Source: Leptolyngbya sp. FACHB-321
GTDB lineage: Bacteria; Cyanobacteriota; Cyanobacteriia; Leptolyngbyales; Leptolyngbyaceae
DNA length: 64,000 bases
Direction: 5' to 3'
NCBI RefSeq assembly: GCF_014695975.1
Contig: NZ_JACJPI010000064.1
Span: forward strand, 124,001 to 188,000
Shown piece after piece: positions 11,385 to 59,900 of the stretch (positions are counted from its first letter, which is position 1; each line of letters starts with the position of its first letter). The position numbers and the translations under genes were made by a program. Under the pieces are notes generated by a model. It saw only the letters and a program-made list of their open reading frames with translations. It ran no database searches and was not told the origin of the DNA.

Positions 11385-11625
11385 GACGATCGCCTTCAAG
11401 TTGCTTTCAGGTGTTGCCTCGCTTTATGAAACTTGCCCATAAATATGGTGTCGATCGAATCACACCGTTCTGGCTTGTAGTAGTGGCTATTCGCACCAGA
11501 GCGATCGAGCAGTGTTATCTGGATTTAATGACTTTGGCGAGAAAGCCTTGGTTAGAGATGCTAAGATTTGAGCGATTGCAATCGAAGGCGATGAACGCCT
11601 AATGCGATCGCCCACAACAAACTAT

Positions 11626-11740
11626 TCGCTTCTAGGGTTCCGGTCTTGCGCGAGTGAGATGACTGGTCCGAGAGAAGCAACCGCGTAGACCTGCAAGCAG
11701 GTAAAGCGGTCACACGGCGGGAAAAAAGCCCGGGAGAGCC
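11626..11740 (+). ncRNA. Guanidine-I (ykkC-yxkD) riboswitch aptamer
   Basis: The conserved blocks of the ykkC aptamer are present in order: CTAGGGTTCCG (11632-11642), ACTGGTCCGAGAG (11662-11674), and ACACGGCGGGA-AAAAA-GCCCGGGAGA (11712-11736). It lies immediately upstream of two genes of carboxyguanidine metabolism, the expected context. Guanidine binding should switch on the downstream genes. Confidence 0.9.
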
Positions 11741-16036: not shown

Positions 16037-16109
16037 CCCCTTTGCATTCCCACCTAGCCCAGCTCACCATCGCCGTGGCTAATCTCTGCTGCTATAATCC
16101 CTTTTATCT

Positions 16110-16183
16110 GGGGCTGTAGCTCAGCAGGATAGAGCGACCGCCTCCTAAGCGGTAGGTCGAGGGTTCGAATCCCGCCAGTCCCG
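16110..16183 (+). tRNA. tRNA-Arg (anticodon CCU)
   Basis: The cloverleaf folds: acceptor GGGGCTG/CAGTCCC, D stem GCTC/GAGC, anticodon stem ACCGC/GCGGT around loop CTCCTAA (anticodon CCT), T loop TTCGAAT with stem GAGGG/CCCGC, discriminator G. No CCA is encoded. The T stem has an A-G mismatch at positions 50-64. An integrase gene begins 186 bases downstream, so the 3' half probably served as the attachment site. Confidence 0.93.
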
Positions 16184-16307
16184 TCAGTCTAAATAGAGTC
16201 AAAACCCCTTCTGAAAGGCGTTCTGAAAACAGCTTTGCGAAATAGATCAGCGATTCCTCTAGTATCGATGATCTATTTTTTTGTCAAGATCGGACTTAAT
16301 TAGACGT

Positions 16308-23465: not shown

Positions 23466-26400
23466 ATGCCACCAGTGCTACTCGAACCGGGGCAAATTAT
23501 TCGCGTGCGTTCACGCCAATACCTCGTTGAAGACGTAATCCCTTCTAATTTGTCAGCAGGTGACACCAGAGTTCGTCTAGCCTGTCTTGAGGATGATGCT
23601 CAAGGCGCTCCGCTAGAGGTCTTTTGGGAGCGGGAGATTGATGCGCAGGTCTTGGAATCCCCATCTTGGGAAGCGGTTGCCAGTCGCGGCTTTGATAATC
23701 CCCGTTACTTTTCGGCTTACCTGCACGCTCTCCAGTGGAATTGTGTCACTGCTACAGACCCGAAGCTGTTTCAGGCTCCCTACCGTGCTGGCATTGAGGT
23801 CAAGGCATACCAGCTAGAGCCTTTGCGGAAAGCGCTGAGAATGCCACGAGTGAATCTGTTTATAGCGGATGACGTGGGACTTGGCAAAACAATCGAAGCG
23901 GGTCTCATCCTACGCGAAATGCTGCTGCGGCAAAAGATTAAGCGTGTGGTCATTTCCTGTCCTCCGTCAGTAGTGCGGCAGTGGAAGGATGAAATGGAAA
24001 GTCGCTTTGGTCTCACGTTTATCGTTTACGATCGCGACTTTGTTGCGGCCAAGCGGCGAGAGCGGGGGTATGGCATCAATCCCTGGAAAGCCCATACACG
24101 CTTTATCATTTCCCATTCGCTCCTACGGGACGAAGTCTATGCGGCACCGTTGCGTGACTGGCTACAAGACTTTTCAGCAGGGTCAATGCTGATTTTGGAT
24201 GAAGCCCATAATGCCGCCCCAGCCAGTGCTTCTCGCTACGCGATCGATTCTCAATTGACCCGCACGATCCGTGATTTGGCACCTCGATTTGAACACAAGC
24301 TGTTCCTGTCTGCCACACCCCACAATGGTCACTCCAACAGCTTCGCCGCCCTTTTAGAAATTTTAGACCCACAACGGTTTTGCCGGGGCGTGCCCGTTCG
24401 TAGTAAAAAGCTGCTCGATGCAGTAATGGTGAGGCGGCTCAAGCAGGATTTGCGAGAAATTAATAGTGCTGACTTCCCTTTGCGGCAAGTCATTCCTGTC
24501 GTTATTCATGGCTTGCCGGATGATGCGCCTGAATTGAAGCTGGCTCGGTTGCTCCAGCAGTACCGTTCCTGCCGCGAAGAGCGGTTGAAGGATGCTCCCA
24601 GAGCAACCCAAACAACTGCCATGCTGGTGATGACTTCGCTCCAGAAGCGTCTTTTGTCTTCGATCGAAGCCTTTGCCCGCACGCTGAGAGTGCATCGGAA
24701 AGCAACTGAGCGGCAAGCAGAGCAGCACCCGCTTAATCAGGGAGGTTTCACACTGCTGCAAGAGTCTTCCGGTGCGGATGACGAGCGGGCAGACCTGGAT
24801 GAAGACGAAGTGCTGCATGAAGAAGCCTCTCAAATGGCAAAGGCTACGCAAGCCTCTGGTACAGCCATTTCGCCACAAGAGTTAGACCTGTTGGAGGCAA
24901 TGACCCAGATTGCTGAGCAAGCGCGTCACCAACCAGATAGCAAAGTTAAAAAGCTGGAGCAATGGCTACGCGAGCATCTTTGTCCTGACCTGGGCACACC
25001 GGGGGCAAAGTGGCTGAATCGGCGGGTGCTTATCTTCACTGAGTACACCGATACCAAGCGCTACCTGGAGCAGCAGCTTGGAAGCCTCCTTGCTAACTCG
25101 CACCGAGAGCACGACCGCATTGACACGTTCCACGGCGGCATGGGGGAAGAGCGTCGGGAATACATCAAACAGGCTTTTAATACTGACCCTGCTCAACATC
25201 CCTTAAGAATTCTGATTGCGACCGATGCGGCACGGGAAGGGGTCAATCTTCAGAATTACTGCGCGGACTTATTCCACTTCGATGTGCCCTGGAACCCTAG
25301 CCGGATGGAGCAGCGCAATGGGCGGATTGACCGCAAACTTCAACGGGAAGCAACTGTTCGCTGCCATTACTTCGTGTTGTCACAACGGGTAGAGGATCGG
25401 GTGCTCGATGTATTGGTGAAGAAGACTAAGCAGATCCAGGATGAGCTGGGAAGTTTGTCACCAGTCGTTGAGAAGCATGTGACCCAGCTACTGGACAAGG
25501 GCATCCGGCAGTCTGAGGTACAGAAGCTAACGGAAGCGATTAATGCAGCCGATCAAGCAGATGAGGAGTCCCAAAATAAGGGTGGTGCGATTAAGGAAGA
25601 GTTAGAAGCGATTCGACTACGGCAAGACAAATTACGGCAGCAGCAGGTGGAACTGGAAACCATGCTGAGGGATTCCAAACTCTGGCTAGGGCTGGACGAT
25701 CGTCATTTCCGCGATACCTTATCCGTTTCCTTAGAGCTAATTGGTGCTGAGCCACTGAAGCCTTTGCAGGCAGCAGCAGCAGTAGATGATGAGGAGCGTA
25801 GCCAGTGGTCTGTTCCAGCCTTAGACCAGCAAGCGGGAGCCGATCCAACCTGGGCAACAACACTGGACACGCTACGGGCACCCCGACAAAAGACGCAAAA
25901 GCTCTGGGATTGGCGTAAAGAAGCACCGATTCGTCCCGTGGTCTTCCGTGATCCTGGCTCCCTGGATGGCAAAGTCGTTCACCTGCACCTAGAGCATCGC
26001 ATCGTCCAACGGCTGTTGGGACGCTTTCTCTCTCAGGGATTCCTGCATGACGAGTTGACCCGTGCCTGTGTTTGCCGCACCGATGACCCCATTCCACGGG
26101 TGATTATTCTGGGCAGACTGTCACTATATGGCGATCGCGCCGCTCGACTCCATGACGAGATTATCTCGGTGGCGGCGGACTGGATTGATCCAGAAGCGAG
26201 AGGGCGAGGGCGGCTGCGTCCCCTAAGTGAAGGTGAGAAAAAAGATGTGCTGCAAATTCTGGAAGATTCGCTGGCCCATCCTCGTTTAAGGGAAGTGCCT
26301 CCTGCATTAGTCGATAAGCTCAAAGCCCATACTGCCCGCGATGTCGAGGATTTGTTGTCTCACCTGGAGCGCCGTGCTACAGAACTGACCGATCGCGCTA

Positions 26401-47497: not shown

Positions 47498-47887
47498 ATG
47501 CCCGAACAACCCTACCAACCGATCGGTCTTGCTGAGTTAATTCAACAGGTCAAGCAGGAACTACTTTCAACTGTGCCTGGAAAAGCGAAAGAGGCTCCCA
47601 TTCTCTTTGTGAGCGGGGTAGAAGTGGAGGCTCAGGTAACCGTTAAGCGAGAGGGCAAAGCCGGTATCAAAATTGATGTCCTCTCGGTAGGCGGCGGCGA
47701 GCTAGGTGGCGGCATCAGTCGGGATGATGTCCATAAGGTGAAAGTCACCTTGTCTCCCTTATTTGACAAGGAGCGGCTGCTGGAGTTTTACCAGGCTTTA
47801 CAGCCTGATCAGGTGCCTGTGGCAGTGAAGCAGAGTTTAGAGGCACTCCTCAAAGGTGAAGAAGGCGAACTGGCAGACCAGTTTTAA
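47498..47887 (+). CDS. Trypco2-like (trypsin-co-occurring domain) small protein
   Basis: 129 residues. IGLAELIQQVKQELLS at the start and EAQVTVKREGKAGIKIDVLS followed by VHKVKVTLSPLFD match the Trypco2 domain, a small alpha+beta domain found next to trypsin-like or CHAT/caspase-like effectors in NTP-dependent conflict systems. The C-terminus is an acidic helix. First gene of the CHAT operon, 28 bases before the CHAT gene. Family role is unproven; it probably acts as an adaptor or signal receptor. Confidence 0.7.
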   Translation: MPEQPYQPIGLAELIQQVKQELLSTVPGKAKEAPILFVSGVEVEAQVTVKREGKAGIKIDVLSVGGGELGGGISRDDVHKVKVTLSPLFDKERLLEFYQALQPDQVPVAVKQSLEALLKGEEGELADQF

Positions 47888-47915
47888 CCGTCCTCAATAG
47901 ACAGAGAGGAACGAC

Positions 47916-49421
47916 ATGGAACTGCTAGAGCTTTATCTCTCTCCGCTAGATGCCCAACGCTTTCAGGCGATCGCAACCCGTTTACCCATTGGGATTGGTG
48001 ATGCTGCAACCGAGTGTGTCTTACCATTCTGGGTCGGTGAGCAAGACTGGCGAAGAACCATTATCAAGGTGCTGGAGAGTAGCCAGGGCTTTCGTGCAGA
48101 ACACTACCCTGAACCTGATGAGCAGGCTTGGCTGAAGCAGGAGGAGTTGCTGTTACCCGATCGCCAAAGCTTTCATGCTGCCTATCTAGAACGAATTGGA
48201 CAGTCCCTTTACCACTCGCTGTTTCCGCCAGATAGCGAGATCAAGCAAGCCTTCCTACACTCCTTACGATTAGCCGAGCAGCACAACACCGATTTGCATT
48301 TGCGACTGAAGTTTGCAGCGGATTCTGTCCAGCGATCGCGCTTGGCAGACTATCCTTGGGAACTGATCCATGATGGTCAGCGGTTTTTACAGCCTCGTCA
48401 GGTTATCGTGTCTCGTTACATTGCCTATGAAGCTTTACCACCTGCGCTTCTGCCCCAGAAACAGTTGCGAGTTTTATTGATCGCGCCTCGGGTTGAAGAT
48501 GCCACTCAGAAATTAGCAAAGCTTTCGGATACTGAACAACAAGCTATTCATCTCGGTCTGAGCAAGGCAAAGGCAGAGGGTTTAGCTGTGCTGGAGTCTC
48601 TATCAAAGGCAACCCTCAAGGCACTGAGTGCTGACCTGTCTCAACGGACTGAAACTCAGATGCCACAGGTGCTGCATTTTGATGGTCATGGACTATTCGG
48701 TAAGCGATGTGTCAACTCACAGTGTGGGCAAATCCATGCTGGTATCAAGGTCGATCGCTGTCGAAACTGTGGTCAATTACTTACAGAACCGACGGGATTT
48801 CTCCTCTTTGAAGATGAGCAGGGTGGACCCGATTACGTCAGTGCTGCGTCACTGGTAGCTTTTCTACCCAAGGGAGTGGCGCTGGTAGTGCTTAGTGCCT
48901 GCCAGTCGGGGATGGCAGTTGCTGGGGATTCGGTGTTTAACGGGACGGCACAACAACTGATCGATGCCAGGGTTCCGGCAGTGGTGGCGATGCAATATGG
49001 GGTGAGAGTGGATGCAGTCAGTCGGTTTGCGGAGCAGTTTTACCGCATACTAGGGCAGAAGAAGCCCCTGGTAACGGCTCTCAATGAAGGGCGAAAATGG
49101 ATGGGAGTGGAGGGAAATCAATGGTACCGTCCTGTTCTGTATCTACGTTGGTTGGATAATCAGGGGGGGCAATTGTTTGCCGAGACAGCAACGGTAGAGC
49201 CGCTTCAAGTCAAGCTAAGCCGTTTTCAAAGATTCGAAATAGAGCGACTGCAAGTGGAATTGGAGGATCTGGATCAAGACTATGAGAGCGTCAAGGCGCA
49301 GTTGCGGGTAGAGCTAGACGCTCCGACGCAAAATAAGTTAGAACGCCAAATTGAGCAGATTGGGCGACAGATGGATACCAAAGAGCAACAGTTATTTCGG
49401 CTAAAGCAACAGGATGAGTAA
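47916..49421 (+). CDS. CHAT-domain caspase-like protease with zinc-ribbon insert and coiled-coil tail
   Basis: 501 residues. The CHAT domain has its catalytic His in LHFDGHGLFG (about H257) and Cys in VVLSACQSGMA (about C328). Between them, CVNSQC and CRNC (about 264-284) form a zinc-ribbon-like insert. The last 60 residues are a charged coiled coil (ELEDLDQDYESVKAQLR) that reappears at the start of the next protein. CHAT proteases are effectors of bacterial cell-death and defence systems. It overlaps the next gene by 8 bases. Intact catalytic pair, so probably active. Confidence 0.85.
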   Translation: MELLELYLSPLDAQRFQAIATRLPIGIGDAATECVLPFWVGEQDWRRTIIKVLESSQGFRAEHYPEPDEQAWLKQEELLLPDRQSFHAAYLERIGQSLYHSLFPPDSEIKQAFLHSLRLAEQHNTDLHLRLKFAADSVQRSRLADYPWELIHDGQRFLQPRQVIVSRYIAYEALPPALLPQKQLRVLLIAPRVEDATQKLAKLSDTEQQAIHLGLSKAKAEGLAVLESLSKATLKALSADLSQRTETQMPQVLHFDGHGLFGKRCVNSQCGQIHAGIKVDRCRNCGQLLTEPTGFLLFEDEQGGPDYVSAASLVAFLPKGVALVVLSACQSGMAVAGDSVFNGTAQQLIDARVPAVVAMQYGVRVDAVSRFAEQFYRILGQKKPLVTALNEGRKWMGVEGNQWYRPVLYLRWLDNQGGQLFAETATVEPLQVKLSRFQRFEIERLQVELEDLDQDYESVKAQLRVELDAPTQNKLERQIEQIGRQMDTKEQQLFRLKQQDE

Positions 49422-50826
49422 CGACCCTCTGCTCGACTTTTATCAAACCGAATTGGATGACCTGGAGCAAGACTACACGAAAGTCAAGGAGCAGCTACGG
49501 GTTGAGCAAGATGGTCCGACGCAAAATAAGTTAGAACGCCAAATTGAGCAGATTGGGCGACAGATGGATGAATGTCAACAGAAAATTGATCAACGTCAAG
49601 CTGATCGCCAACGCCAGGTAGCCCAGATTGCTCTAGACACATTGATCAGTATTCTTAAAAGCGATGAAGCTCAGCTTGAGTTAATAATCCAGGCGTATCA
49701 AAAAACTGTTAGCCATTGGCCCGTTCCAGTGCGCTTGGAGGCAAATACAGTCGAGACCATCATCAACGAGTTGGAAAGAATAGCCCGAGGTCAATCATCC
49801 TATACCGCTCGGGACGAATTTATCGCGCACGTTGTCCATCAGACTTCAGCCCCATTCCTGTCTAATGCCCTTAATCAATGGAGTGTTCAATATCGAGCAG
49901 GGGTTGACTGGCTCCAACTCCATACACAAATCCAAGCGGCTCAAGACAAGCGCTTAGAGACTGCTGAACCCGCTATCTTAATGTCTATCACCCGCTGTGA
50001 TGAAGTCTCTACTCAGACTCAAGAGGATGCAACCTATTATCAAATCAATGCGTGGCTGATCGAAGATATTGAGACGTACCGATCGCGAAAAACGGGTTAT
50101 CACTCTCTGCTGGCTACCAATTCTCTAGAGTCTGCACCCTACCTGTTGGAGGAACTGCTGCCCAAAATAACTCATCTACTGAATCACTTTTTAGCTGAAC
50201 AGAGGCGTCTCTGCGATTTCTGTGAAAACTATCCCCAGATCCATGTCTTTCTGCCACTGGAACTGATGCACCTGGGTGTCGATCTATGGCCACACTTAAA
50301 TCCAGAAAACACTAGCCGTCGAGAATATTTAGGACACGACCACATAGTCGTTATTCGTTGCGCCAATCGCTACGATCGCAATTACAGAAAAAGTCCAAGC
50401 TGGCTGAAGTTGTGGAAACGACACCAGGGCTTATTGCAAGAGTCTGCCAAGGATGTTTTTGTACTGGGTCATGATCATGACCTGGATGAACTCATGGATG
50501 TTCTGGATGCGGCTGTGCAGCCAGCCAGCAACGTTGTAGGATTGCATGTTACTCAGGTACCCCTGAATACAGAGGATCTGTTTTATGAACTTTTAGACTC
50601 GGGCTTACCACTCGCGATCTGGCCGCGCCGTAATTTGACAGACAATGCCTATGAAACCGCAATGGCAGATTTGCTAGCGACTTGTTGTTTAGAGAGGTTA
50701 CCCCATACAGTGAAAGACAAACGATATGAAACTCGTAGACGACAGAATGCCCCAGACTGCCACATCGGACATCATTTGTCCCTCTTGTGGGATGACCCCT
50801 ATTTAGTGCCTCCTAAATCCGCCTGA
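49414..50826 (+). CDS. VMAP-like protein (vWA-MoxR-associated) with adaptor coiled coil
   Basis: 470 residues. Residues 5-70 are the coiled coil shared with the CHAT protein. A helical effector-associated-like region follows (about 72-150, DTLISILKSDEAQLELIIQA). The C-terminal part fits VMAP-C: VFLPLELMHLGVDLWP (about 277-292), HDHIVVIRCANRYDRNY and LPLAIWPRRNLTD. In ternary systems described for NTP-dependent conflict, VMAP links the MoxR/vWA switch to an effector by shared adaptor domains. Here that effector would be the CHAT protein. 12 bases separate it from moxR. Confidence 0.75.
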   Translation: MSNDPLLDFYQTELDDLEQDYTKVKEQLRVEQDGPTQNKLERQIEQIGRQMDECQQKIDQRQADRQRQVAQIALDTLISILKSDEAQLELIIQAYQKTVSHWPVPVRLEANTVETIINELERIARGQSSYTARDEFIAHVVHQTSAPFLSNALNQWSVQYRAGVDWLQLHTQIQAAQDKRLETAEPAILMSITRCDEVSTQTQEDATYYQINAWLIEDIETYRSRKTGYHSLLATNSLESAPYLLEELLPKITHLLNHFLAEQRRLCDFCENYPQIHVFLPLELMHLGVDLWPHLNPENTSRREYLGHDHIVVIRCANRYDRNYRKSPSWLKLWKRHQGLLQESAKDVFVLGHDHDLDELMDVLDAAVQPASNVVGLHVTQVPLNTEDLFYELLDSGLPLAIWPRRNLTDNAYETAMADLLATCCLERLPHTVKDKRYETRRRQNAPDCHIGHHLSLLWDDPYLVPPKSA

Positions 50827-50838
50827 GTTCAGAGCCGC

Positions 50839-51936
50839 ATGAGTAACCTACCCGAAGACTGGAAGCTGTTTCAGGGGGATAACCGAGCACCCCATGACGC
50901 GATCGGCACCTTGCCCGATGCCCCACCCTGGCGACCCTTTGGCAAAGACCCAAACCCTGGTGTTAGTCGCCGTAAACGTCGGGGTGAAACCTTTCAGTCG
51001 CAGTCAGAAGAGGTTGCTATGGTCAATGCGGCACTGTACTTGCGGCGGCCACTGCTGATTACGGGCAAACCGGGTACGGGTAAGTCGTCACTGGCGTATG
51101 CCGTGGCTCATGAGCTAAAGCTGGGGGAGGTGCTCTACTGGCCAATTACGACCCGCACCACCCTTAAAGATGGGCTTTATACCTACGATGCTATTGGTCG
51201 TTTACAAGAGGTCAAGCAATCGGAAACGAGAGGGGACTATACCGAAGACCCGCAAAAAATCGCGGATTACATTACTCTGGGGCCGCTGGGAACGGCCCTA
51301 TTGGAGTCATCGCGTCCCCGCGTGCTGATTATTGATGAAATCGACAAAAGTGATATTGACCTGCCCAACGATCTGCTGACGATTTTTGAAGAAGGTCGGT
51401 TTGAAATTCCGGAGCTGGGGCGACTAGAAAAAGAGAGTGACGACCCGGAGCAGAAATCAGTCTCCATCACGGTTAAGGTTCGCACGGACTATACGGATGA
51501 GACCGAACATACTTACGCTGAGAAGAAGGTCACAATTAAGGGAGGACGAATTACCTGTCAAGAGTTTCCCCTAGTGATCCTTACTAGCAACGGGGAACGC
51601 GATTTCCCCCCGGCTTTCTTGCGCCGGTGCTTGCGTCTGAATATGCGCGACCCCGATCGCGTCCAATTAGAACGCATCATTCAAGCCCATCTCGAACATT
51701 GCAATCTGTCAGAAAGCCAAGTGAGCGATTTAATTGACCGTTTTCTGAAAAGTCGCGATAAGAGCCGGGAGCAGCTTTCGACCGATCAACTGCTAAATGC
51801 CCTATTCATGATTGTCCGCCAGCGCGACTGGGTGGGTGACGAAAAAGAGAGCTTGCTGGATTATCTGTTAGCACCGTTGGATCGCCCCCTAGAGGTTAAA
51901 TCCAAAGATCGTTCACCTAAGTCTCCAGCCCAATGA
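50839..51936 (+). CDS. MoxR-family AAA+ ATPase
   Basis: 365 residues. Walker A TGKPGTGKSSLAYA (about 75-88), Walker B VLIIDEIDKSDIDLPNDLL (about 161-179), sensor 1 VILTSNGERDFPPAF and arginine-finger region LRRCLRLNMR. MoxR ATPases act as chaperone-like switches with vWA proteins, which matches the next gene. It overlaps that gene by 4 bases. The insert FEIPELGRLEKESDDPEQKS between Walker B and sensor 1 is longer than usual. Confidence 0.88.
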   Translation: MSNLPEDWKLFQGDNRAPHDAIGTLPDAPPWRPFGKDPNPGVSRRKRRGETFQSQSEEVAMVNAALYLRRPLLITGKPGTGKSSLAYAVAHELKLGEVLYWPITTRTTLKDGLYTYDAIGRLQEVKQSETRGDYTEDPQKIADYITLGPLGTALLESSRPRVLIIDEIDKSDIDLPNDLLTIFEEGRFEIPELGRLEKESDDPEQKSVSITVKVRTDYTDETEHTYAEKKVTIKGGRITCQEFPLVILTSNGERDFPPAFLRRCLRLNMRDPDRVQLERIIQAHLEHCNLSESQVSDLIDRFLKSRDKSREQLSTDQLLNALFMIVRQRDWVGDEKESLLDYLLAPLDRPLEVKSKDRSPKSPAQ

Positions 51937-53297
51937 TTAGTCGCCTGATCACCATCCTGCAGGAATCAGAGTTGCTGCTGAGCGATCAGGAGATTGAGTC
52001 TTTTAGTGAGGTGCAACCTTTACTGAACGACGAAGACATTGCAGATGCGCTCTGGTTAGCGTCTAAGATTGGCAGTGCCTATAAGGTCAGCGAGCCAGCC
52101 GCTATCAAAGCGGTCAGCGAATCAGATGATGCGATCGCGATTGAGGTGATTGATGATAACACCGTTGTAGTCGCGCCCTCACCCATGGTCTCTGCTTATA
52201 TGCCCCCGGCGGCGAAGTCTGACAATGGATCGATGGAAACTCCAGAATTGGGCTTACCCATCCAAGTCCAAGCGGCTCCAGCTCTGGCTCATCCTCGTGA
52301 GATTAGTCGATCGCTGCGTCCTTTGCTGCGGAAGGTGCCGTCGTTGACGCGATCGGAGCTAGATGAAAGCGCCACTGTGAATCGCATTGCTGAACGAGGC
52401 ATCTGGTTACCCATTCTTAAGCCTTCACCTGAGCGCTGGTTTGACCTGGAGCTGGTGATTGAGGCTTCCAAGTTTAGCTTTATTTGGCAGGAAACCCTGG
52501 ATGAATTTCAACAGTTACTGGAAGGACAGGGAGCTTTCCGCAATGTACGCACCTGGACTGTCAAAGAGGCGGCTACGGGGCAACCGCAGTTAGTAGCCAA
52601 GCGACAGCAGGGCACAGGTATAGAGCAAGACCAGCCATTACGGAGTCCTAAAGAACTGGTCGATGCCTCTGGACGGCGATTAGTGTTGTTCTTGAGTGAT
52701 TGTCGTTCTCGCCTGTGGCAGCAGGGGCAAATCCATGACTGGTTGACCCTTTGGAGCCAGCATGGGCCAGCCGCGATCGTGCAACTGCTGCCCGAACGAT
52801 TGTGGAGCCAAAGCGAACTGGATGTCGGGTTTGCGGTACAGGTGGGCTCCTTGATGCCAGGTGCACCAAATTCAAAGCTGCAAATCAGAGAATTGCCTGC
52901 TCGTACCGAAATTGCGCCTGCGGATACGTTAACAGTGCCGCTCGTCACTCTGACTGCAGAGGCGTTGAAGCAGTGGGCGCTAGTGGTTGCGGCGGCCGGG
53001 CGGCAGCGATCGCCAGCACGCTTGTTTGACTTGTCCTGGGTCAGCGATCCAGAACGCGATCAAGCGATGGCTGTTATCCAACCGCAATCTGCTAAGGAAC
53101 GGGTAGAACTTTTTATGGCGACGGCCTCTCTGCTGGCCCAACGGCTAGCCTGCATGATGGCAGCCGTACCCGTAGAACTACCCGTGGTGCATCTAATTCA
53201 GCAAGAACTTTTGCCAGAGGTGCAGTCGGTTCATATTGCTGAAGTCTATACCAGTAGTCTGTTAGAAGAAGTTAGGCCAAACCGCGGACGGCTCTAA
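51933..53297 (+). CDS. SAV_2336 N-terminal-related protein (vWA-like partner of MoxR)
   Basis: 454 residues. A variable first third is followed by SLRPLLRKVPSLTRSELDES and a vWA-like Rossmann region with RRLVLFLSDCRSRLW (about 248-262), which stands where a MIDAS motif would be but is degenerate. Then WLTLWSQHGPAAIVQLLPE and VVLNL-like strands. This is the arrangement of SAV_2336-type proteins that accompany MoxR ATPases. Metal binding is doubtful because DxSxS is not conserved. It overlaps its neighbours by 4 bases and 1 base. Confidence 0.7.
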   Translation: MISRLITILQESELLLSDQEIESFSEVQPLLNDEDIADALWLASKIGSAYKVSEPAAIKAVSESDDAIAIEVIDDNTVVVAPSPMVSAYMPPAAKSDNGSMETPELGLPIQVQAAPALAHPREISRSLRPLLRKVPSLTRSELDESATVNRIAERGIWLPILKPSPERWFDLELVIEASKFSFIWQETLDEFQQLLEGQGAFRNVRTWTVKEAATGQPQLVAKRQQGTGIEQDQPLRSPKELVDASGRRLVLFLSDCRSRLWQQGQIHDWLTLWSQHGPAAIVQLLPERLWSQSELDVGFAVQVGSLMPGAPNSKLQIRELPARTEIAPADTLTVPLVTLTAEALKQWALVVAAAGRQRSPARLFDLSWVSDPERDQAMAVIQPQSAKERVELFMATASLLAQRLACMMAAVPVELPVVHLIQQELLPEVQSVHIAEVYTSSLLEEVRPNRGRL

Positions 53298-54352: not shown

Positions 54353-54390
54353 TCAAGCCCCGAAATCTTTACTGACTTATAATTTTGGGC

Positions 54391-55578
54391 ATGAGCAGGC
54401 AAGAAAACGTTTCTCCCCAAAAGTCTATTTACCTGGACTATCACGCGACTACACCCACAGATCCACGAGTTGCCAGTTTAATGCTGCGCTACATGATCGA
54501 AGAATTCGGCAATGCCAGTAGCGTAGATCATGAGTGGGGAGATCGCGCTGAAGATGCAATTAAACAAGCCGCTAAAAATGTTGCTGCTTTGATTGGAGCC
54601 TCACCTAGGGAAATCATTTGGACTTCTGGCGCGACTGAAAGCATCAACCTGGCAATTCAAGGTAGTCTTCCCTCCAACCCTGAAAAGCCTCACCGAATCG
54701 CATTGTTACCGCTCGAACACAAAGCGGTTCTTGACACCTGCCAAGCGTTTGAAAAGCGAGGCTGGGCAGAACTGATCTATATTCAAGTCGATTCCAAAGG
54801 CAGACTCGACCTTAATCATCTAGAGCAAGTCTGTATGGAGGGGGTGTCCCTGCTCTGCGTCATGGCTGCCAACAATGAAATTGGCAATGTCTATCCCATC
54901 CAAAAGATCGGACAGATTGCTCAGCGCTGTGGTATTCCTTTCCTCTGCGATGGCTCTCAGGCAGTGGGCAAAATTCCCATCCAATTTGAGGAGTGGGGCA
55001 TCACTTATCTAGCTCTTTCCGCCCATAAGCTCTACGGACCCAAAGGAGTTGGAGCCTTGGTTGTTCGCAAGGGTCACTATCTCGAACCTTTGCTGTTTGG
55101 CGGTGGTCATCAGCAGGGAATGCGATCGGGCACCTTCAATATTCCTGGCATTGTCGGGTTGGGAGAGGCTTGTCGTTTACGATCGCTGGAGATGGAGGAA
55201 GATGAGCGGGCAATAGCTACTAAACGAGACAGGCTCCAGGCTCTCTTATTAGAAAGAACTCCTGAATTAGTGGTGAATGGCGACACTACCCATCGATTAG
55301 CTGGTAATCTCCATATCTCTGTTCCTGGTATTCCTAACAGCGCTGTTGTTGCGAGAGTACGCCATCGTCTTGCGATCTCAACAGGTTCAGCATGTTCATC
55401 TGGCGTTGAATCACCTTCTCATGTTCTTCAGACACTTCGCTTGCCAGAGGTTATCGTAGATGGAGCACTCCGAATTGGGCTAGGAAAGTTTACTACAGAA
55501 GAAGAAATGAATGGTGCTGCTGTAATTCTCTCTGAAGCTGTTGCCCAGATTCAGCAGGTTCTCTACGCCATGTCTTAG
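54391..55578 (+). CDS. DndA/IscS-type cysteine desulfurase
   Basis: 395 residues. PLP enzyme that moves sulfur from cysteine to an active-site Cys: YLDYHATTPTDPRV at the N-terminus, PLP Lys in LSAHKLYGPKGVG (about K213), catalytic Cys in STGSACSSGVESPS (about C335). In phosphorothioation systems the DndA/SspA desulfurase supplies sulfur to DndC/SspB-D; no such acceptor lies in this window. It sits 38 bases after the FtsK gene on the same strand. The ATG at 54391 is preferred over an upstream TTG. It could also be a housekeeping-type enzyme captured by the operon. Confidence 0.85.
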   Translation: MSRQENVSPQKSIYLDYHATTPTDPRVASLMLRYMIEEFGNASSVDHEWGDRAEDAIKQAAKNVAALIGASPREIIWTSGATESINLAIQGSLPSNPEKPHRIALLPLEHKAVLDTCQAFEKRGWAELIYIQVDSKGRLDLNHLEQVCMEGVSLLCVMAANNEIGNVYPIQKIGQIAQRCGIPFLCDGSQAVGKIPIQFEEWGITYLALSAHKLYGPKGVGALVVRKGHYLEPLLFGGGHQQGMRSGTFNIPGIVGLGEACRLRSLEMEEDERAIATKRDRLQALLLERTPELVVNGDTTHRLAGNLHISVPGIPNSAVVARVRHRLAISTGSACSSGVESPSHVLQTLRLPEVIVDGALRIGLGKFTTEEEMNGAAVILSEAVAQIQQVLYAMS

Positions 55579-55685
55579 ATTTTGTTAGTTGTGAGTTCAG
55601 TTGCTGTGAACCATTCAACTTTTAGGAAGCCTTGCAAGCCGAATTTCCTAAATTCGAGATTTCATTCGCTTTCAGTTACATCCAG

Positions 55686-55896
55686 CCTAGAAGCATAATC
55701 AACAATGGCAATCGACTGAAATCTTAATAAAAATTAAGATAAAGTGGCGGAATTGTTATGCTTCCAATTTGTGATTACGGAAAAGTTATGCTTCTAAAGG
55801 GATCAAAAGCGTTGCGATCGCCTACTGAGGCAATCGAGGTTTCAAAGCTTTTGACGGAAAAGTTATGGTTCTAGGTACGGAAAAGTTATCGTCCTA
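55686..55896. repeat. Array of five ACGGAAAAGTTATGCTTCTA-type repeats
   Basis: Direct copies: GCGGAATTGTTATGCTTCCA (55747), ACGGAAAAGTTATGCTTCTA (55777), ACGGAAAAGTTATGGTTCTA (55854), ACGGAAAAGTTATCGTCCTA (55877); a partial inverted copy, CCTAGAAGCATAATC, is at 55686. Spacing is irregular (30, 77, 23). No gene covers it. The design resembles multi-site transposon ends (Tn7-like) or replication iterons. Confidence 0.6.
55721..55740. terminator. Perfect AT-rich hairpin after the desulfurase gene
   Basis: ATCTTAAT and ATTAAGAT pair perfectly around AAAA. It lies 140 bases past the stop of the desulfurase and may help to end the transcript, although there is no T-tract. It falls inside the repeat array above. 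Confidence 0.3.
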
Positions 55897-55956
55897 CCGA
55901 CAGCGAAGATCATTAGCGCTTTCGCATACTGGCTTTTAAAGTTCTATGTTGATTGG

Positions 55957-56020
55957 ATTGGGGTAAAAATTAGGTATTTTTGGGGTAGCTTAGGTCGGAA
56001 ATTGGGGTAGGATTGGGGTA
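55957..56020 (+). promoter_or_regulatory. Four ATTGGGGTA repeats phased at 22, 22 and 11 bp
   Basis: ATTGGGGTA at 55957, TTTGGGGTA at 55979, ATTGGGGTA at 56001 and again at 56012. All steps are multiples of 11 bp, so all lie on one face of the helix. They stand 212 bases before the second small DNA-binding protein and mirror the TTTGGGCATA array near the first integrase. Confidence 0.6.
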
Positions 56021-56231
56021 GAGTTATAGTACAAACGCTCTTTACCCTAGTTGCTGCCCATGTTTCATGCCTGAGTTTTAACATTTTTAGGAGCATGTTT
56101 GATTTAGTTATTATTGGGTACTTTAAAGTCAGGTCAGCCTGCGCCTTATAAAGCAGAAAGCCTTGAGTAAGCTCTGTTTAACAACTGAGTAAAAAGAGGA
56201 AGCCTATCCACCACTCACTTGGAAAGGCTCC

Positions 56232-56618
56232 ATGAGCAATTTCGACTTGCCAGCTAGGGCAAAGGCTAAAGACGCAAGATTTTCAGCGACAACTCAAAAT
56301 GGCACGAGACCAAGAGTAAAGAGGCGATCGAAGCCGATTCGGCGCAAGTACGATTTAGATTTTCAGCAAACTGCTGAGTTTGTTGATAAGTGGGGTGCTG
56401 CACAGCTAACTGGGCCCAGTCCTGAAACTCTCAAAAAGTACAGGCTTAGTGGTCTGTTAATTGAGGATATTTACTGGGTTCGAATTAACTCCAAAGCCCT
56501 ACGCTATAACGCAAAGCTTCTAGTCGATTGGCTCCGAAACCATGGGAATCCCCGAGCCCACGAGCAAATAGTTGAACTTTATCTAGCAGCTAGCCCAGCA
56601 AACGGACGGAAGACCTAA
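56232..56618 (+). CDS. Second small DNA-binding protein, paralogue of the one at 18560
   Basis: 128 residues with a basic N-terminus (RPRVKRRSKPIRRKYDLDF). The rest aligns with the protein at 18560: TGPSPETLKKYRLSG against TGISASTFKQYRLGS, IYWVRINSKALRYNAKLLVD against IHWQRVNQRLTLYNLPLILD, and GNPRAHEQIVELYLA against ANPLEHQRAIETYLT. It is thus another excisionase-like or element-regulator protein. It faces the broken integrase, so it belonged to a second, related element. Confidence 0.65.
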   Translation: MSNFDLPARAKAKDARFSATTQNGTRPRVKRRSKPIRRKYDLDFQQTAEFVDKWGAAQLTGPSPETLKKYRLSGLLIEDIYWVRINSKALRYNAKLLVDWLRNHGNPRAHEQIVELYLAASPANGRKT

Positions 56619-56660: not shown

Positions 56661-57155
56661 CAAGTAAGCAGTTTTGAGAAAGATTTTTCAAACACTGCTT
56701 ACCGAGGTTGAGTATTGTGTTTCCAACCAGTTGACTGCTTTATCAGTCTTTTCTCGGCTTGTTAGCTGGCTGTAAGTGCGATCGGACTCTCTAACTGAAT
56801 GCCCAATCATTTCAGCCAGAGCTTCGTCCTGCTCACGATTGCCATATTTAAGCTGCCATGTGATTGCTATTCGTCGGAAATCATGGGGAGAAGTCCGTTT
56901 GGGTTCGCCAAATAGGTGACCTGTGGCTGTGTACATTGTCCGAACGACGACATCTCCCAACCTAGATCCTTCGTAGGGTTCACCAAAGTTTTCAATCGTG
57001 CGGAGATTGAGCCTGAGGAAAACCCGCTTGTGATTAAGTTTCACCTTTGGTCGCCAAGTATTCAACCATTCATCTAAATCGTCGGTCAGTATTGGGGGAA
57101 GACGGAATTCTCTTTCCCTCCCTGTTTTGCGTCCTGTCTTGTGATCTTCTGGTTT

Positions 57156-57361
57156 AACGTGAGTTCGGGTTAAGCCGAAGGCTAAAACCCCTACTATGAA
57201 TAGCTTGAGTTAAGTAGCCAGCCAGTCACCCTTTCTCAATAAGACCTGCTACTGCAAGTATTTGCAACTGTGAGACTTATTGACAAGAACTTGACCGAGA
57301 GCGTGGTGGCAAGCCGCAGAAAATCAGGGCTTCTAGCGATTCCTTATCCCGAACTCACGTT
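57156..57361. mobile_element. 206-bp MITE-like element with 14-bp terminal inverted repeats
   Basis: Begins AACGTGAGTTCGGG and ends with its exact reverse complement. Flanked by GGTTT on both sides (57151-57155 and 57362-57366) as target duplication. It has no ORF. Excising it together with one GGTTT rejoins the integrase codons ...KLK-PEDHK in frame, which proves insertion. The parental transposase family is not certain. Confidence 0.8.
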
Positions 57362-57407
57362 GGTTTAAGTTTCATGACATAGCCATCGGGTTCCCTAAAT
57401 AAAGTTC

Positions 57408-57448
57408 GGTCCACTTCTAACTCAGAGAGTTAGAAGTGGACCGAACAG
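57408..57448. repeat. Perfect 41-bp palindromic hairpin (19-bp arms)
   Basis: TTCGGTCCACTTCTAACTC, loop AGA, then GAGTTAGAAGTGGACCGAA. The second arm (read on the plus strand) is genuine integrase sequence in neither orientation outside this spot except the arm next to 57408; the other looks like an inverted copy of it made during a deletion. It could also act as a terminator. Confidence 0.55.
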
Positions 57449-58152
57449 GGCAATAAGTCAGAATTGCGATCAGCAAATATCGCTGCCAGTTCTGCATTAT
57501 GGCTGTTTCAAGACGTTTTGGCCCTGCAATAGATCTACTGTTACCTACCCTCTTCTAGGAGCACAACACCGCCTTAAGTAGCGGGTAACCTTAATACACT
57601 GTTCTAAAGTTATGAGCTTCTCTTCAAGTGCCTCTTTTGAAGTTGTCCGTCGAGGCTCTTTTCTATGCTTCTGTGAGAGTTCATTCAGTAGCGATCGAAT
57701 GACTTCAACCTCCTTAATGTTCTTGTATTTAGTGGTCTGAGATCTTCGGTAATGCTGCCATTTCGCAACGTTGAGAGCAGTTGCACCAAATAAGATTGCC
57801 CAACCATAACTGTTACCTCGATCGTTTATGCCCCAAGCGATGAATTCATCTAGCCACTCACGATCTGCAATCAGTTCAATCTTTAGCTCATCAAATGGCC
57901 AATCTTCAACATGGTGTAACCATCCTAAGAAACAGAGGATGTGGTACCTATAGGGTTTTGCAGTACTTTCTCGAACAGGTGAATCCTGCCGCTTAGGAAT
58001 TTCGAGAGCAGTCAAGAATCGATAGAATTTATCCAATTGCTCGCGCAAGCTGGGAGTCAAATCTGATTCTTTAAGGGCATAGGGTTTGGCAGAATATTGC
58101 CTTCGACCTTTTCTCTGTTTCGTAAGGTCAAAGCCTAGGTTCTGTTGACATT

Positions 58153-58745
58153 TCAGCGAAGTTCAATCAGCAAGGCAGCCAGATAAACAAAGCTGAGAAA
58201 ATTCTTCGCTTTCTTCTCAAAGCGAGAAAAGACGCGGCGAAAGTGCTTGAGCTTGTTGAACCAGCATTCGATTAAATGCCGCTCCTTGTATAAGTGAGTA
58301 TCCAGTTCACGGGGTTGCTTGCGATTTGAGCGCGATGGAATCACGGCAATTGCCCCACGTTGCTCAATCATGGCGACCATCCCATTGGGATCGTAGCCTT
58401 TGTCGGCAATCACGTGCGTCTCGTGCCAGTCTTTGAGCAAGGTGAGGGCCTAGGTGATGTCGTTGACCTCGCCTCCTGTGAGCACAAACGATAACGGTGT
58501 TCCTATTCCATCCACCAGCGCATGGAGTTTGGTGCTAAGGCCCCCTCGGCTCCGCCCTAGCGCTTCGCGTTGCTGCCCCCTTTTGCTCTAGCAGCACAAG
58601 CATGGGCGCGGAAAATCGTGCTATCCATCAGCAGACTCTGCTTCATTGCCAATATAAATGTTGGGTTGGTAACCTAAAAGCTCAAGCAGTTTGTCCCAGA
58701 GAGCGTTGCTCAGTAAAGTTGGGGTTGACATCACGGTTTCGCTTA
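58153..58745 (-). pseudogene. Decayed IS5-family transposase
   Basis: The C-terminal 95 residues are open (58440 to 58153) with DDE motifs HVIADKGYDPNG and LIECWFNKLKHFRRVFSRFE. Upstream the frame continues as QREALGRSRGGLSTKLHALV and TPLSFVLTGGEVNDIT, then an in-frame TAG interrupts it before ALTLLKDW; farther upstream another shift or stop separates the AHACAARAKGG block. So the transposase is inactive. One of at least two IS5-type copies here. Confidence 0.75.
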
Positions 58746-58830: not shown

Positions 58831-59900
58831 GAGAGATTATGCTAGCCGCCTAAGCATCAAGCGAATCATCGCCACATAGATGAAGGTTTCTGAGGTGGCT
58901 GGCATAATCTCGTAATCTTTCACGACCATATATATGTAACTTGAACCCGAAGAACCATAGGGCTTCGCCCCACCGAAGGTATTCGACTAAGGTCTTGCCG
59001 CAGTTAGCAAAGACTTGATATTGTTTGATGTGGCGATTGTGACAGATCTTGAGGCTAGTGGAGTCGATAAAGCTGATATGACCCTACGAACACACCTCAG
59101 GACGTTGCTTAAAGGCGGCATCAACACAATTGCGAAAGTTATCAAACTCATCCCACCGTTGCCGCATCCAATTTTTGAGCACAAACTACCAGTGCTCGAC
59201 CTTATTCAAGTCAGGCGAATCGGGGGAAATACCAAAGTTCACCCCCCTACGGCTTAAAAGTCTGACAAAAGTCATCGACGGTGCAGAAAAGTTCTTCTAA
59301 GCTGAACGTAGAGCGGGGAAGGCTGATTGATTTGGCAATTTCAGCATACCTGCCCCACCTTTTCTTATCCAGGACTCTCATTATCTAGCACAGGTGGCGC
59401 TTGCGCCCTTTGATTTTCCTACCCCCATCAAATCCAATTTCAAGTGCCGCAGGAGTTGCACTTTCAACCGACTGAGAATCTCAACTGTCGGCACTTGATG
59501 CTGCTTGATGCCCTTCCATCACCCGTTTCCATTGCACCAGGTGGGTATAAACTCTCTCCCAGGTACCGTCTAATCACCACGCTCGAAAGTAGTGATAGAC
59601 CGTCTTCCACTTGAGCACGTCCTTCGGTAGCATTCGCCAGGCATAGCCCGCAGCAATGATGTAAAAAATGAAATTAACGATGGCTCTGGTGTCCACGCTG
59701 CAAGGTCGTCCGGCTGGTTTAGCACAAGGTAGCAACGGCCGTAGGCGTTCCCATTGTTCATCACTTGGATCTGTTAAATAAGACAATTTCATTGCTCTCA
59801 TACCCCTGTCGGTCATTCTTTCTTCTGGCAGCCTACGGGGTGAGAGCTTCTTGTTGCTCCTACGCTATATCTGTGCCTCTCAGACATCCTCTCACTTTGA
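58812..59900 (-). mobile_element. IS5-family element remnant with an IS982 remnant nested in it
   Basis: Reading on the minus strand: an IS5 transposase N-terminus (59816 to 59574, SDEQWERLRPLLPCAKPAGR, AAGYAWRMLPKDVLKWKTVY, HYFRAW, then TGA, then LDGTWERVYTHL), a KIKGRKRHLC piece near 59400, then foreign IS982 sequence, and finally the IS5 C-terminus DYEIMPATSETFIYVAMIRL and MLRRLA ending at 58837. Terminal AGAGGATGTYTGA repeats lie at both ends. Several stops show that it is dead. Confidence 0.7.
58926..59310 (-). pseudogene. IS982-family transposase remnant
   Basis: Pieces in order: SLEELFCTVDDFCQTFKP (59304 to 59250) followed by a stop, GHISFIDSTSLKICHNRHIK (around 59080-59020), CGKTLVEYLRWGEALWFFGF and KLHIY (ending near 58927). 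These match the N-terminus and the middle DDE segment of IS982 transposases. Frame shifts and stops throughout. Confidence 0.7.

Follow-up and report, generated by a model that had tools for sequence, protein, structure and literature searches.

A gene-less repeat array in Leptolyngbya sp. FACHB-321 as a very probable orphan right end of a cyanobacterial Tn7-like transposon

The closest described relatives of the feature analysed here are the cyanobacterial Tn7-like transposons in which TnsA and TnsB are fused. PMC11406308 traces the I-B2 and I-D CASTs to a subfamily that combines a TnsA-TnsB fusion with a tRNA-targeting TnsD. CyCAST, the type I-D CAST of Cyanothece sp. PCC 7425, has a fused TnsAB, and is described as homing around 30–33 nt downstream of a tRNA (PMC10293859), in this case tRNA-Leu. 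It carries I-D CRISPR-Cas, and its likeness to the present transposon group lies in the distance from the tRNA and in the fused TnsAB. No cas family was found among the subset of window ORFs that were run through Pfam and PADLOC, where the window denotes the whole stretch of 64 000 nucleotides that was analysed (contig NZ_JACJPI010000064.1, positions 124 001–188 000). The cargo of Tn7-like transposons includes Dnd genes, 14 such transposons being listed in one table of PMC8649781. A second system of relevance is the SspABCD–SspFGH phosphorothioate defence described in PMC8092258; the C-terminal part of an SspH and an SspA in the window match the PADLOC models, but the SspH is cut to 351 aa and stands behind a VMAP/MoxR operon. 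Of the papers listed by one full-text search, none combined Tn7-like transposons with both SspH and phosphorothioate.

The subject of this analysis is a repeat array that follows the SspA-type gene. It is very probably the stranded right end of a cyanobacterial Tn7-like transposon with fused TnsA-TnsB, the rest of which has been lost by later decay, and it now lies within a larger island that holds anti-phage genes. With the TnsAB-fusion elements it shares the layout of the right end, an ACA-type terminus, defence genes as cargo and a presumed insertion ~32 nt downstream of a tRNA, but it keeps only the right end and the nearest cargo. It belongs to a known group of transposons, as a decayed orphan member, and is not a new system or mechanism. 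The features are collected in Table 1.

Table 1. Features of the orphan right end and its surroundings, in window coordinates
Feature	Position	Strand	Basis or remark
tRNA-Arg (CCT), island attachment site	16109..16185	+	island target
SspH C-terminal fragment, 351 aa	53297..54352	+	positions 1419–1766 of the 1766-position SspH model
SspA/DndA-type cysteine desulfurase, next to the end	54385..55578	+	PADLOC models, homology
Inner part of right end	55662..55746	.	gapped alignment; weak
TnsB-binding-site-like repeat 1, right end	55747..55766	+	direct copy, relatives' layout, matrix
TnsB-binding-site-like repeat 2	55777..55796	+	direct copy, relatives' layout, matrix
TnsB-binding-site-like repeat 3	55854..55873	+	direct copy, relatives' layout, matrix
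TnsB-binding-site-like repeat 4, terminal	55877..55896	+	direct copy, relatives' layout, matrix
Transposon terminus CCGACA (outside-in TGTCGG)	55897..55902	+	hexamer shared with the right end of Nostoc pANSO36B
GCGAA, presumed 5-bp target-site copy, right flank; partner probably lost	55903..55907	.	G006 alignment
Left end of second tRNA-Arg island, B	55903..56063	+	G006 homology; TTGGGGTAR repeats at 55958–56021

The repeat array and its counterparts in other genomes

The array contains four direct copies of a 20-nt sequence with the starts given in Table 1, spaced 30/77/23 and 80–100% identical to the reference copy. The first-pass annotation had described four direct copies and one partial inverted copy in a region free of genes, and this is borne out: the inverted copy is an exact 11-bp half-site, TTATGCTTCTA, on the minus strand at 55688–55698, the role of which is unexplained, and the window ORF list has no ORF of at least 80 aa between 55578 and 56232. 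Exact copies of the 13-mer ACGGAAAAGTTAT number three in the 6.7-Mb genome, all of them within the array. With up to three mismatches the degenerate 20-mer has 32 matches genome-wide, compared with 25 for the reversed control, and the array is their sole cluster, with no second one elsewhere in the genome. Among 97 genomes (the organism's own and 96 relatives) the 20-mer with one mismatch was found in its own genome only, and a search of a phage collection gave no match to the array. Scans of genomes and viral contigs returned three loci with one exact copy of the 20-mer each, and these were judged to be due to chance.

How general is this arrangement? A blastn search of plasmids with 55660–55910 gave three weak matches, with E values of 0.06, 0.8 and 0.8. 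The third (E 0.8) is from Burkholderia and lies under a korA gene. The other two have no annotated gene beneath them, and lie near genes annotated as TnsA-containing transposases in plasmids pANSO36B of Nostoc cf. commune SO-36 and pP742402 of Gloeothece citriformis PCC 7424; as these are weak by E value (0.06 and 0.8), they were counted only after comparison of the layouts. In Gloeothece there are four sites with a spacing of 30/77/23, identical to that of the window, and the array, which ends ..GATGACA, lies 2.7 kb upstream of the gene for a fused TnsAB. In Nostoc, sites 77/23 apart with a weaker site 30 bp before them lie next to tnsAB-tnsC-tniQ, and the array ends ..CCACCGACA, with the same terminus as the window, which reads ..CCTACCGACA at 55902. 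By Pfam, the fused protein of each plasmid has TnsA and rve domains, the Nostoc ATPase has TniB, and the third Nostoc gene has TniQ. Thus the right-end sites and spacing of both elements are as in the window, but unlike the window they retain tnsAB and an AAA ATPase gene, and in Nostoc also tniQ. A gapped alignment, which is weak, further places TGAAATCTTAA at 55717–55727 in common with the Nostoc stretch between tnsAB and the right end.

Nearly the same layout occurs in two further genomes, designated G226 and G149, where a 31/78/23 array lies just upstream of tnsAB; G226 has a second array at 31/77/23. A seven-sequence alignment agrees with this. TnsAB matches were found in 32 genomes, and the scan covered 20 long loci and ten short ones (L109–L118). 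A right-end score above 24 was obtained in four of the 20 long loci, with weak values of 29.4 and 25.1 in two of these, and in none of the ten short loci; at L121, L122 and L125 two sites 30 bp apart lie upstream of tnsAB. The remaining loci may have a diverged right end, or one that lies beyond the stretch. The ACA terminus closes eight of nine arrays, the exception being a weak second cluster in Nostoc that ends GTCACG.

This second cluster of Nostoc pANSO36B (L083 36490–36570; composite score 33.1) is ~10 kb from the first, and is perhaps another orphan end. In G226 (L123 1550–1758) two ends of the family, one right and one left, stand head to tail with 5 bp between them, followed by a tnsAB element. 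These are tandem insertions; the junction, ATCACA-CAATT-TGTGAT, fits a 5-bp spacing and is no proof of duplication. The relatives with both ends visible allow the flanking 5-mers to be compared: they differ in Nostoc and G226, and in a further genome, G027, they agree by eye at four of five positions.

The strength of the match can be judged with a site matrix trained only on the Gloeothece, Nostoc, G226 and G149 sites, and hence free of the window. At a strict 30/77/23 spacing it gives a score of 78.0 at 55747; the next-best places in the window, on both strands, score below 0, and 100 simulated 64-kb sequences (first-order Markov, single strand) reached no more than 9.6. The single sites of the array score 17.5–21.9 with this matrix and 26.6–32.0 with another one. 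Together with the layouts in Gloeothece, Nostoc, G226 and G149 this strongly supports the proposal in the first-pass annotation of a multi-site end of Tn7-like type. The TGT/ACA terminus for which it suggested a search is present as CCGACA directly after the last site, extending the functional feature to 55902, 6 bp past the end coordinate given before. TnsB would bind at the four sites.

The missing left end and the Ssp cargo

The window feature is a right end without the rest of a complete Tn7-like transposon. With neither the matrix nor the terminal string could an inverted partner left end be located in the window or the 16 kb that follow, and the expected left flank of island B, as a marker of the left end, was likewise not found in the window. 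The neighbourhood of 47.3 kb and the region upstream of 16 kb had been put forward as places where the motif might recur, but they contain only background single matches, scoring at most 13.3 with one matrix (compared with 26.6–32.0 for the array sites) and at most 12.9 with the window-free one (compared with 17.5–21.9). Using the Gloeothece and Nostoc proteins, tblastn detected no tnsAB, tnsC or tniQ at 0.01 in the window and the following 16 kb. There is no TnsAB of the family in the organism's own genome at 1e-100, where only weak partial TnsAB matches occur, the best at 3e-13.

The genes next to the end are of Ssp type. The SspH fragment covers the last 348 positions of the model, and the SspA and DndA models of PADLOC fit the gene at 54385 almost equally well; its stop lies 168 bp from site 1. 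No other Ssp gene was found among the eight window proteins scanned with PADLOC. SspH-SspA recurs just inside a right end of this kind. G227 encodes a complete SspH of 1779 aa and an SspA; ~0.7 kb past the stop of the latter comes a right end spaced 77/23 that closes with GTCACA, and the contig itself opens with a tnsAB in two pieces, truncated by the contig start. In G027 the right end, 2.0 kb past SspA, is degraded, and so is the left end about 34 kb from it, which lies 30 nt beyond a tRNA-Ala; no relative of the Nostoc or Gloeothece Tns proteins was found in the 80 kb searched. The scan took in the sequence downstream of SspH in 12 of the 18 other SspH-matched genomes, leaving out G043, G159, G167, G173, G232 and G324. 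Such a right end follows SspH in three of 13 genomes including the window (two of the 12 others, G227 and G027), a count to be read with the stretches of G304, G188 and G358 in mind, which extend only 2.5–4 kb past SspH and could miss an end.

The first-pass annotation had also suggested that the array might mark the outer limit of the element with which the CHAT operon arrived. This holds in part. The SspH fragment and SspA are cargo inside the same type of right end in G227 and G027, but the stretches of these two genomes searched with the window proteins contain no relative of CHAT or VMAP, and therefore the CHAT/VMAP genes may have joined separately. In the window a conflict-system operon of Trypco2, CHAT-EAD9, EAD9-VMAP and MoxR-like genes (47498–53297) runs straight into the truncated SspH, and looks as if it had been substituted for the front of the Ssp operon. 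Gloeothece pP742402 has an annotated CHAT-domain gene (L082 38277–41498), which lies to the tnsAB side of the right end at a distance of ~37 kb. Further upstream in the window, at 23466–46915, there is a DISARM system, with DrmD, DrmMI, DrmA, DrmB and DrmC matching PADLOC models; ABC-transporter, GmrSD, MkoA-like helicase and Uma2 genes lie between the DISARM genes.

Could the array instead end a smaller, non-autonomous element that lacked tns genes, moved as such, and has a left end mutated beyond recognition? We consider this unlikely. The closeness of SspA to the end, the inverted half-site at 55688 and the case of G027, with no recognisable tns gene between its degraded left end and its right end, are all compatible with it, but no left terminus of TGT type was found in the window, and in G227 a tnsAB and this same cargo stand together on one side of such an end. 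A miniature element of 200 bp was also entertained, and dropped as there is no TGT left terminus at 55688.

The boundary with the tRNA-Arg islands

The orphan end lies within a region organised around a tRNA-Arg(CCT) gene. An exact 43-bp copy of 16142–16184, the 3′ part of this tRNA, is found at contig position 201 492, equivalent to window coordinate 77 492 and thus outside the window, whence the whole island is about 61 kb in length. After the tRNA in the window comes an integrase with an arm-binding domain (island A, left). Repeats of the TTGGGCATAA type adjoin this integrase and are also found at the right end of a related element in G010. A repeat at the right end (77.5 kb), CTGGGGTAA, is like those of the left end of island B at 55958–56021, which are probably the arm-type sites of an integrase.

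Island B is recognised by comparison with G006, a genome of the same genus in which the matching island left end directly follows tRNA-Arg(CCT). From 55911 the window DNA matches it at 89% over 153 bp, and relaxed scoring carries the match back to GCGAA at 55903, immediately past CCGACA, so that the boundary is certain to about 8 bp. In G006, 27 nt and the 5-bp GCGAG separate the tRNA from the corresponding cut, 32 nt in all. Compared with G006, ~1.2 kb with the integrase gene of B is missing at 56063/56064; the G006 copy of that gene has an in-frame stop. On the other side, the desulfurase gene of G002 is 88% identical to the window up to 55661 and diverges beyond. Homology to G002 therefore ceases before the array and that to G006 begins past the terminus, and the transposon end fills the gap between two independently conserved blocks. 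At the position of the array G002 has a pair of direct repeats, TTGTCCAAAATTC, 3′ of its close SspA-type desulfurase (L024 13180–13240), perhaps the end of another element. Within the window, tyrosine-recombinase-like pieces and IS4/5-type transposase fragments lie on the minus strand at 56688–58060, 58153–58440 and 59574–59816; the recombinase-like pieces were judged by eye from the translation and have no Pfam match.

These comparisons make it highly improbable that the array consists of arm-type (or Xis) sites belonging to the neighbouring island's tyrosine integrase and delimits that island itself. The array does abut the left end of island B, with the short arm-like TTGGGGTAR repeats just past it, but the G006 relative of B is without it, having only TTGGGGTA repeats between tRNA and integrase and no matrix score above 13.0 at the locus (L023), and matching sites, their spacing conserved, recur at TnsAB-element ends in other genomes. 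An assignment of the array as the end of the tRNA-Arg island was similarly dropped, given the attachment repeat at 77 492 and the absence of the array from G006. An operator role for the array, with a regulator controlling either the SspA operon or the small gene at 56232, would suit its intergenic location but is scarcely credible, since the same layout stands beside unrelated genes in Gloeothece and Nostoc and is closed by the ACA terminus in nearly all the arrays. Iterons, also named in the first-pass annotation, or a replication origin for the island's primase-helicase, are not supported and have negligible probability: short direct repeats with irregular spacing and no gene, together with a DUF3854/D5_N gene in the same island, would be in keeping with them, but that gene is 34 kb away, and like repeats end the Nostoc element, where no such primase is annotated.

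Probable homing to tRNA genes and a possible order of events

The preferred reading, that of a stranded TnsAB-type right end, can be set against the insertion sites of the family. A tRNA gene is present in eight of the 20 long TnsAB loci. In seven of these the left end, taken as an outward terminal site followed by inward sites, lies 30, 30, 31, 31, 32, 32 and 32 nt past the 3′ end of the tRNA, positions that come from a loose half-site pattern written after those sequences had been read. At L137 the pattern matched a second place as well (offset 18), which was set aside, and at the eighth locus, L138, no left end was seen. The seven tRNA-proximal left ends begin with TGT in three cases, and otherwise with TGA, TAC, TAC and TAT. 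In all seven the coordinates show tnsAB reading toward this left end, which puts the right end far from the tRNA, and cargo may sit between tnsAB and the right end; in Gloeothece four annotated genes do so.

For the window the G006 alignment places the insertion point 32 nt past the tRNA, with the boundary certain to about 8 bp, and the tRNA is no longer beside the end. The tRNAs beside the TnsAB loci examined are tRNA-Ala, -Leu and -Val, and tRNA-Asn without a left end; tRNA-Arg(CCT) was not seen as a neighbour among them, and the 49-kb stretches of Nostoc and Gloeothece contain no tRNA gene. A narrow pattern, requiring a left end 29–35 nt past a tRNA ending CAGTCCCG (tRNA-Arg(CCT)), was found in none of 388 genomes, but by reading its left-end part fits only two of the seven known left ends (L129 and L137).

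A scheme consistent with these data can be proposed. TnsAB would have bound the four direct sites up to CCGACA at 55902, paired the ends, cut and joined them, inserting the transposon ~32 nt downstream of tRNA-Arg(CCT) with its left end toward the tRNA. The point of insertion would then have been inside the left end of a tyrosine-integrase island occupying the same tRNA, and the transposon would have carried the Ssp operon next to its right end. The likely order begins with entry of island B into tRNA-Arg, followed by homing of the Tn7-like element into the left end of B, between the core and arm sites, and by entry of island A into the same tRNA. Lastly a rearrangement, presumably a deletion, would have taken the right end of A, the core copy that was B's left core site, the left end of the transposon and the tns genes, leaving an orphan end with its nearest cargo that should now be immobile.

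The interest of the feature lies in this contest of two kinds of mobile element for a tRNA, and in the Ssp cargo. We suggest, tentatively and as something short of an even chance, that two unrelated site-specific mobile systems compete for one tRNA, and that the Tn7-like element, homing to tRNA-Arg(CCT), splits the core and arm sites of an integrase island already present there. If so, the split could sever an island from its own attachment site and trap it, the Tn7-like element would deliver the Ssp defence operon, and stacked, locked elements would seed the defence island. Should the separation of core and arm be general, it would amount to a mechanism, open to experiment, by which one mobile element locks another in place at a common tRNA. 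The gene-less array is itself accounted for as the edge of a vanished transposon, and its signature, four sites at 30/77/23 with ACA, can be used to find orphan ends without any transposase gene. The analysis also points to the Ssp operon as a recurrent cargo at such right ends. Elsewhere in the window, a guanidine-I riboswitch is found at 11621–11738.
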